Shown one piece after another: positions 33,218 to 34,574 of a stretch of DNA of 64,000 nucleotides (positions within the stretch are counted from its first letter, which is position 1; each line of letters opens with the position of its first letter). The stretch is taken from assembly GCA_022616435.1 (NCBI GenBank), contig JAKEET010000024.1, forward strand, positions 1-64,000. Direction: 5' to 3'. The notes under the pieces were generated by a model. It did no database searches, was not told the origin of the DNA, and saw only the letters and a program-made list of their open reading frames with translations. A program made the translations under genes and the position numbers. This DNA is from Gemmataceae bacterium (GTDB lineage Bacteria; Planctomycetota; Planctomycetia; Gemmatales; Gemmataceae).

Positions 33218-33365
33218 CGCAAACTCCTGAGTGCGTGGCATCTCGTAAGATGAAGGTCAGCGTGGCCGCCGCGGCTGAGCTTGTCGTTCCGCCAAAAGCC
33301 ACAGGCAACGGCCTTCGCGCATCGTTGGCTGAAATGCAAATCCAAGCATCAACCGAGGTGACCAC

Positions 33366-34574
33366 ATGACCAATCCATGGCCGAACCGGGCCGCCCTGGC
33401 GCCAATCGCCGGAATGCTTTTCGCGATCGCAGCGTTATCGCCAAGTGCATCGCGGGCCGACGAACTGGCCGATCGCGCCGCGGTGATCAAGCCGAGCGCG
33501 CGGGAACTCGCGTGGCTGAAGATCCCGTGGGTGCTTGACCTGAACACCGCGCAGCAGACCGCCAAGGCGGAAGCCCGGCCGATCTTTCTGTGGGTGACCG
33601 GCGATGACCCGCTGGGGCGCTGCTGAGGGTATGCCTTCGGGCTCCGTGCGGGCCCGTTGTCCGACCAGGAGGTGATCCGCCGCGTGTCGCGGAACTTCGT
33701 GCCGGCCGCGCTCAACCTGTACCGCGTGCGCGAGGCCGCCGACGGCAGTCGTCAACTCTTCCTGTCCATCCAGCGGCAGAAAGACCAGTACCAGGGGATC
33801 TGGATCGTCTCGCCGGAGGGAAAGGTCCTGGCGGGGCGACACGACTACAAGGATTTCAAGAACGCGGCGCGCGAGCTGCTCGACACGATCGACACAGGTC
33901 TGGCGGCATTCGGTCCGGTCAAGCCACGTCCCGTGGACACGATCAAGACAACGTCCGCCGAGACGATTGCCGCGTTGTTGCCGTCGCGGGGCAAGGGGGT
34001 GCGTCAGGATGGAAGCGTCGATCTGGCCCTCTACGTGCGCCAGGTGCTCGGCGGCGGGCGCGACACGTTGCCGCCCGGCATCGAGGCCGGTCGAGCCTGG
34101 CTGTGGGACGGAAAGTATCGGACCGATGGCCCAGCGGTCATCGATTCGGTTTCGCTGTCGTCTGCCGCGTGGCGCGCGTTGGCGCCGAAGGAAGTCAAGC
34201 CAGGCGCGCGCTGGTCGGCACCGGAAAACGTCGCCCGCGAATTCACCCGGCTGCTGACCGCCAGCAGCGACCAATCCGCCATGCCGCGCCCCGAAGACGC
34301 CAAGCTGGCGAAACTGGATTGCGAGGTCGAGTCTGTGGCCGGGGGAGTTGTCCACATCCGGCTTTCCGGCAATTGGAACATGGTGCACGCGATTGAAGGA
34401 GACAAGAGCCGGCTCCTGTACGGCGCGGCCGCCGCGCGGGGCCGTGCGGTTTACGACGTCGGCGCCGCTGCCATGCGTTCGTTCGTGCTCGTGTTCGACG
34501 GGACGGTGCGCCACGGCCGGTCGAACGCCGCGCCGAACCGTACCGGCGCGGTCGCGGAATGGTCTGCGAAGTGA
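33366..34574 (+). CDS. Probable selenoprotein, exported thioredoxin-like (in-frame TGA = Sec87)
   Basis: This is a single frame of 403 codons interrupted only by TGA at 33624-33626. ATG 33366 (GAGGTG upstream) opens a signal peptide ([21 protein letters not shown]). Around the TGA the reading is [15 protein letters not shown], stop, [16 protein letters not shown], then [12 protein letters not shown]. That is the strand-Cys-helix-strand layout of a thioredoxin-like domain, with the redox pair Cys86-Sec87 in place of CxxC. The 316 codons after the TGA are open, GC-rich at third positions and continue with a Gln/Asp-rich strand ([20 protein letters not shown]) and a C-terminal domain ([16 protein letters not shown]). 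A SECIS-like hairpin begins 12-14 nt after the TGA. The alternative is a recent nonsense mutation of a Cys or Arg/Trp codon. Sel genes are not in this window. Confidence 0.65.
33624..33656 (+). promoter_or_regulatory. TGA with SECIS-like hairpin
   Basis: The outer stem ggg/gccc (33640-33641 with 33654-33655, plus c33638-g33656) and inner stem tcc/ggg (33643-33645 with 33650-33652) enclose a gtgc loop at 33646-33649. The loop starts 20 nt after the TGA, within the 16-37 nt usual for bacterial SECIS elements, and opens with GT as in known examples. The stem is short and imperfect, and GC-rich DNA forms such hairpins readily. Confidence 0.4.

Follow-up and report, generated by a model that had tools for sequence, protein, structure and literature searches.

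A probable Planctomycetota-wide family of exported, thioredoxin-like selenoproteins with a Cys-Sec pair

Our subject is one gene in a stretch of Gemmataceae DNA 64,000 nucleotides long (referred to here as the window). A single reading frame extends from an ATG at position 33366 to a terminal TGA at 34572-34574. The sole internal stop, TGA 33624-33626, corresponds to residue 87 and is preceded by Cys86. An earlier, sequence-only reading of the window had proposed that this codon specifies selenocysteine (Sec), in a frame broken only by the TGA directly after Cys86. Read-through translation confirmed the frame. Downstream of the internal TGA there are 315 sense codons. The features of the locus are as follows.

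33355-33360, plus strand: GAGGTG, a plausible ribosome-binding site judged from the sequence, 5 nt upstream of the ATG.
33366-34574, plus strand: predicted selenoprotein gene of 402 residues, with Sec as residue 87 and TGA 34572-34574 as terminal stop (read-through translation; homologues aligned over near-full length; purifying selection before and after the internal TGA in related pairs).
33366-33458, plus strand: probable signal peptide, residues 1-31, with Arg8, a hydrophobic stretch and SRA ahead of D32 (by eye).
33459-33839, plus strand: thioredoxin-like N-terminal domain; profile A5, from 34 such domains (window part 33474-33839), matches 3ira and AGR3 (3ph9) in the PDB.
33621-33626, plus strand: TGC TGA, the Cys86-Sec87 pair, in the active-site motif RCUG (neither Cys86 nor the TGA column varies among the 14 rows of alignment A1; Sec lines up with the CxxC N-terminal Cys).
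33639-33655, plus strand: SECIS-like hairpin GGGCUC-CGUGC-GGGCCC, of 6 bp, with a 5-nt loop having G then U at positions 2-3 (covariation; synonymous-codon control; covariance model in other genomes; fold of -9.0 kcal/mol).
33984-34571, plus strand: family-specific C-terminal domain, its fold without assignment (alignments A1 and A6).

Frame length alone is weak evidence for such a gene, because an open frame of 359 aa also exists on the opposite strand. The gene is beyond chance because 13 near-full-length homologues, with 34-41% identity, have TGA at the same column, and because the hairpin covaries. Alignment A1, which holds the 14 closest members (window included), covers near-full length; the motif PLxRCUGYAxGLRxGPL fits 11 of its members. 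Inspection of this column had been suggested as a check on the sequence-only reading, and homologues do carry Sec opposite residue 87. Coding beyond the TGA, also claimed earlier, continues under purifying selection. Values of dN/dS, computable for 10 of 11 related pairs, are 0.07-0.35 after the TGA compared with 0.08-0.41 before it; dS was saturated for the eleventh pair. Across the 11 pairs, third codon positions differ most on both sides of the TGA. Searches with the read-through protein, or either half, returned 0 Pfam families at E <= 1. The sole NCBIfam hit for the window protein (E 0.089) is at chance level, and the C-terminal domain has no credible match in the PDB (best E 0.2). The gene is flanked by a short ORF lacking a Pfam match on one side and a DinB_2 gene on the other. 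Inspection by eye found no conserved gene context, since neighbours differ among the nine loci compared (the Pfam scan covered the window's neighbours).

We turn to the hairpin. Its stem, in which 33639-33644 pairs with 33650-33655, begins 12 nt past the TGA, and the loop CGUGC (33645-33649) is 18 nt past it. The hairpin reported earlier is therefore real, though nearer to the TGA than the 20 nt given, and G and U occupy the second and third loop positions rather than opening the loop. Constraints for bacterial SECIS elements are listed in the legend to Fig. 2 of PMC13188914: a loop of 3-9 nt, a stem of 4-16 bp, G among the first two nucleotides of the loop, a distance of 16-37 nt from the UGA and a minimum free energy <= -7.5 kcal/mol. 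The window hairpin lies within each of these limits (5 nt, 6 bp, G second in the loop, 18 nt and -9.0 kcal/mol). Folded alone, the hairpin has a z score of -1.45 for its -9.0 kcal/mol, and the surrounding 39-nt stretch has a z score of -1.10. Single-sequence folding energy was dropped as evidence, because stability did not exceed that of shuffles in GC-rich DNA.

In the family, 73 sequences align without gaps across 36 nt from the TGA. The stem register pairs nucleotides 16-21 with 27-32, where T of the TGA is 1. Six pairs are formed in 33 sequences, five in 24, four in 5, three in 5, two in 4 and one in 2, meaning that 11 of the 73 hairpins have three pairs or fewer in the common register. 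For the 68 distinct rows, 82.1% of cells are paired (55.1% when shuffled) and the covariation score is 0.661 (0.210 when shuffled); 0 of 500 shuffles scored as high on either count. Sliding the partner by 1-3 columns reduces the score to 0.06-0.24. One of five covariation measures, changes on both sides of a pair, gave no separation (6 compared with 5.4 shuffled; 210/500). Since the amino acids might force pairing, we ran a control in which each sequence was re-coded synonymously 2000 times using family codon usage. Five or six pairs occur in 57 of the 73 real sequences; in the re-codings the number averages 22 and never exceeds 36. For the window protein taken singly, 13% of synonymous re-codings reach six pairs. 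The loop codon is CGT in 50 of 73 sequences, whereas at other Arg positions of the family CGT accounts for 11%. We conclude that covariation of the hairpin exceeds what codon choice predicts.

The covariance model R1 was also applied to whole genomes. In the source genome, it recovers, at E < 0.01, four of the six family genes used as model rows; paralogues L056 and L057, having 1 and 3 pairs, are missed. Among genomes contributing no row to R1, matches occur in 16 of 20 having both the family and tRNA-Sec (selC+), several of which share a genus with row genomes, and in 0 of 20 selC- genomes, which largely lack the family too and so gauge false positives. The model misses the other 4 of the 20 selC+ genomes. 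Its 26 matches in test genomes comprise 17 (from 15 genomes) inside listed family matches and 9 outside. The latter, in G023:C2, G037:C48, G044:C401, G063:C252, G064:C75 and C229, and G077:C13 and C34, are possible further selenoprotein genes, or chance.

The source assembly is a 6.4 Mb draft, 79% complete, in 217 contigs. The sequence-only reading had pointed to selA, selB, selC and selD as genes to look for. Three are present: selA (565.8 bits), selB (368.2 bits) and selC, the tRNA-Sec gene (72.9 bits with Rfam; called tRNA-SeC, anticodon tca, by ARAGORN). For selD, nothing lies above the cut-off in the 79%-complete assembly. The best selD hit, L050, is thiL according to NCBIfam, adjoins queC, and was rejected. 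Three more Rfam tRNA-Sec hits exceed the cut-off, with 47-51 bits; ARAGORN calls two of them tRNA-Ser and leaves one uncalled. In related genomes, selD is above the cut-off in 123 of 198. Relatives' SelD has one in-frame TGA in many genomes, and a second SelD type, without TGA, sits in frames roughly 630-1440 residues long, suggesting a fusion.

The family and the Sec machinery occur together. For tRNA-Sec we used a threshold of 60 bits, chosen after a gap between 61.4 and 56.1 bits was seen. Among the 198 related genomes, 66 (own included; a lower bound, counted among the matches listed) have a TGA match. tRNA-Sec is found in 58 of these 66 and in 57 of the remaining 132 (Fisher p 4.8e-10, ignoring phylogeny); for selD the figures are 60 of 66 and 63 of 132 (p 5.9e-10, ignoring shared ancestry). 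In the phylum sample of 392 genomes, tRNA-Sec accompanies 84 of the 91 TGA genomes, again a lower bound among the matches listed, compared with 142 of the 301 others (Fisher p 2.9e-16, a value that takes no account of phylogeny). TGA genomes giving no tRNA-Sec hit, 8 of 66 and 7 of 91, are all drafts of 80-1340 contigs. One of the 66, which is 83% complete, has neither tRNA-Sec nor selD. Separately, the match at L014 (G053:C76) carries a TAG besides the Sec TGA, in a genome with no tRNA-Sec hit over 60 bits; this copy is possibly decaying.

Taken together, these comparisons indicate that the gene almost certainly encodes a selenoprotein in which the TGA is recoded. Three other explanations deal with the TGA differently. 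A stop does interrupt the frame, in a draft assembly of 217 contigs at 79% completeness, so the codon might be a true nonsense mutation in a pseudogene or a miscall. This is extremely unlikely: TGA is found at one column in dozens of genomes, selection persists past it and a covarying hairpin follows. The same conservation excludes a sequencing error at 33624, which the sequence-only reading had named as a risk to its claim. A code in which UGA means a standard amino acid throughout the genome would suit the many family genes that read through TGA. However, TGA also terminates this very gene and 5 of the 7 other window genes checked, and tRNA-Sec with anticodon TCA is present alongside selA and selB. 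We consider the chance of such a genome-wide reassignment negligible. The TGA could also be a true stop separating two products, a peptide of 86 residues and a second protein for which translation restarts downstream, at TTG 33657. An open frame does begin at that TTG, and a degree of termination is usual at Sec UGA codons, which counts for this explanation. Against it, the TGA has conserved sequence to either side of it within a single thioredoxin-like domain, and neither the hairpin nor the co-occurrence with tRNA-Sec would have an explanation. Hence, two separate products are very improbable.

Having settled on recoding to Sec as the preferred reading, we consider the protein. Profile A5 (34 N-terminal domains) matches PDB entries 3ira (E 5.8e-6) and AGR3, 3ph9 (E 3.2e-4), with weaker matches to AGR2 and a Thioredox_DsbH protein. 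Sec aligns with the first, nucleophilic Cys in the CxxC of 3ira. These profile matches support a thioredoxin-like assignment for the N-terminal domain and agree with the earlier suggestion that the TGA sits at the redox motif of such a fold. A two-sequence AlphaFold run gave a low-confidence model (mean pLDDT 37). At position +3 relative to Sec, Gly (49) or Ala (21) occurs in 70 of 75 Sec rows. Therefore, the usual resolving Cys is missing. Conversely, Cys is found at -1 (29) or -2 (41) in 70 of the 75 Sec rows, compared with 1 of 10 rows having neither Sec nor Cys (Fisher p 4.6e-8, ignoring phylogeny). The five Sec rows without Cys at either position include L056, with Cys at +3, and L084, which is truncated where its locus ends. 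In a tree computed after masking of the motif, CU and CxU interchange at least three times and there are 7 changes of Sec. In 6 independent contrasts, Cys follows Sec in about 4 and opposes it in 0 (median p 0.125). Hence, once kinship is counted, shared loss of Sec and its partner Cys is suggestive only. The redox role claimed earlier for the Cys-Sec pair thus draws on conservation and on shared loss, where the phylogeny-corrected test is not significant. We infer that Cys and Sec form a redox pair.

Recoding, hairpin, thioredoxin-like domain and conserved Cys-Sec pair all emerge from comparison of related sequences. A mechanism can be proposed on this basis. SelB and Sec-tRNA-Sec would decode UGA 33624 as selenocysteine, with the hairpin 12 nt downstream as guide. 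The probable signal peptide, recognised by eye in the N-terminus, would export the product, which is expected to fold into a thioredoxin-like N-terminal domain and a family-specific C-terminal domain. Sec would occupy the place of the nucleophilic first Cys of the CxxC in thioredoxins. The missing second Cys is probably replaced by the Cys just ahead of Sec, as CU here and CxU in many members. With the partner Cys preceding Sec, the enzyme would therefore cycle between selenol/thiol and selenenyl-sulfide states. Its most likely role would be disulfide reduction or exchange, or peroxide reduction, in the cell envelope. The product is likely to be an exported selenol-thiol oxidoreductase, although export, chemistry, substrate and electron donor are all features that we infer.

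A selenoprotein of another kind has to be weighed here. The Cys-Sec pair might be non-catalytic, either binding a soft metal or acting as a redox-sensitive switch for the C-terminal domain. CU motifs do occur in the metal-related selenoproteins MbdU, HgcA and a CopZ-like protein, as tabulated in PMC13188914 (Table 1). Moreover, paralogues are numerous in the family and include some that lack both Sec and Cys. However, Sec takes the position that the nucleophilic Cys has in proteins with a thioredoxin fold, and we judge a non-catalytic role unlikely. The explanation that we favour, with good but not complete confidence, is an exported selenoprotein in which a thioredoxin-like domain is joined to a C-terminal domain and the Cys-Sec pair has a redox role.

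The family is widespread. At E <= 1e-3, a search with the window protein gives matches in 78 of the 198 related genomes, the source genome counted among them. Nearly all strong matches among those listed cross exactly one TGA. The wider profile A2, with at most four candidates scored per genome, matches in 136 of 392 phylum-wide genomes at E <= 1e-6; most listed matches contain one TGA. Planctomycete relatives with Cys or Sec had been suggested in the sequence-only reading. They do exist, and that reading, right on the gene, understated the scale. After removal of 13 segments from 12 duplicate loci, 94 of 107 matched segments remained. The residue at the Sec column is Sec in 75, Cys in 7, Ser in 6, Asp in 2, Asn in 1 and Pro in 1, with 2 lacking a residue; since non-TGA matches were added on purpose, 75 of 94 does not give an unbiased estimate of how often Sec occurs. 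Six of the Cys rows are ordinary CxxC proteins of the outgroup. The seventh, L030, is a true family member with Cys, and its family part follows a kinase-like domain (by eye). Among the sequences examined, forms with Sec are far commoner than forms with Cys. Ser, Asp, Asn or Pro occupies the Sec column in L100-L107, L117 and L119, where the partner Cys is also missing in 9 of 10; these are probable non-redox paralogues. No homologues were found in viral contigs or plasmids.

We compared the family with known systems. Proteins of the DUF255 / Thioredox_DsbH family (PF03190; 3ira, 7tkv) and AGR2/AGR3 share the thioredoxin-like domain, and the first CxxC Cys of 3ira and the Cys of AGR3 align with Sec. 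Here, in contrast, Sec replaces Cys, +3 is Gly or Ala, the partner Cys lies ahead of Sec and a C-terminal domain is added. Matches to PF03190 fall short of family level (1 of 14 A1 members, E 0.024; 3 of 16 A2 members, best E 0.0021). The VPGUxxT thioredoxin-like (seleno)proteins NF041382 and NF041383 are likewise thioredoxin-like Sec proteins, and theirs are the only selenoprotein models touched by A1 (1 of 14 members, E 0.0031 and 0.032). However, the motif here is RCU, GCU or CxU, VPGUxxT is absent, and such weak scores do not amount to a family match. With NCBIfam release 20, there was no match at E <= 0.01 for 16 A2 members or nine further proteins (including the seven of genome G072, and L124, both described below). 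Adjacent Cys and Sec also occur in mammalian thioredoxin reductase, in a C-terminal GCUG able to form a selenenyl-sulfide. That enzyme is unrelated; it is a flavoenzyme whose Cys-Sec pair sits on a flexible tail, outside any thioredoxin fold. Brachyspira Sec.1/Sec.2 (Thioredoxin_3) and the Trx7/PDZ selenoprotein NF041199 resemble our proteins as Trx-like selenoproteins with CxU, UxC or CxxU motifs, according to the table in PMC13188914. Their domain families differ, and the present proteins do not match NF041199. In the description available for the Brachyspira proteins, Cys/Sec lies in a short extension ahead of the thioredoxin domain.

Gene callers that stop at UGA cut selenoprotein genes short. 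For this reason, work on planctomycete envelopes that uses called proteins would tend to miss the family; selenoprotein finders starting from Cys homologues would miss it too, because Cys forms look rare. A 2026 review tabulates 119 prokaryotic selenoprotein families, and the selenoprotein-rich groups it names are mostly anaerobic (PMC13188914, in the parts available). Compared by description, none of the 119 tabulated entries is recognisable as the present family. The word planctomycet is absent from this review and occurs 0 or 1 times in the main texts of the selenoprotein surveys searched. Among the papers listed by the literature searches, one, PMC4807772, treats planctomycete selenoproteins; in the portion available it names fdhA and fmdB. 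Within the literature searched, the family appears new, although the supplementary table of PMC4807772 (planctomycetes P1, P2) might hold a member. Our data suggest, with reasonable probability, a Planctomycetota-wide superfamily of exported thioredoxin-like proteins, rich in paralogues, in which Sec is the rule, Cys is rare and the partner Cys has been relocated (CU/CxU for CxxC). Such proteins would constitute a large, uncatalogued, periplasmic, selenium-dependent redox system. If so, a major group (136 of 392 sampled genomes, with the TGA form in at least 91) would join the selenoprotein catalogue, raising the testable question of why planctomycetes spend selenium outside the cytoplasm.

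Single genomes can carry many paralogues. Six profile matches in the source genome show Sec at the column. L124 (G000:C51:11349, ORF about 1273-2217 of the locus), the seventh thioredoxin-like gene with Sec in that genome, is absent from the protein-profile listing and was found via SECIS (R1, E 0.077). It has the motif DFTUNNAEALRVNALAD and a signal-like start, and its kinship was judged by eye. In the relative G072, seven Sec thioredoxin-like genes lie on one strand within 10.5 kb (L090, G072:C62, 3142-13643), six head to tail and one upstream past an opposite-strand ORF. Each of the seven has a signal-like N-terminus by eye; in three of them, the hairpin forms at most three pairs in the common register. 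One source-genome paralogue, L056 (G000:C191:23922-25097), has UxxC instead of CU or CxU and no hairpin in the usual register, indicating either a different SECIS or another arrangement. Finally, two relatives have similar signal-bearing ORFs on the minus strand (L091:5292-5933 and L099:4256-4834) that face a family gene. They are alike by eye over the first 60 residues (DY...KPxAVFIAxG) and possibly encode a linked thioredoxin-like partner.
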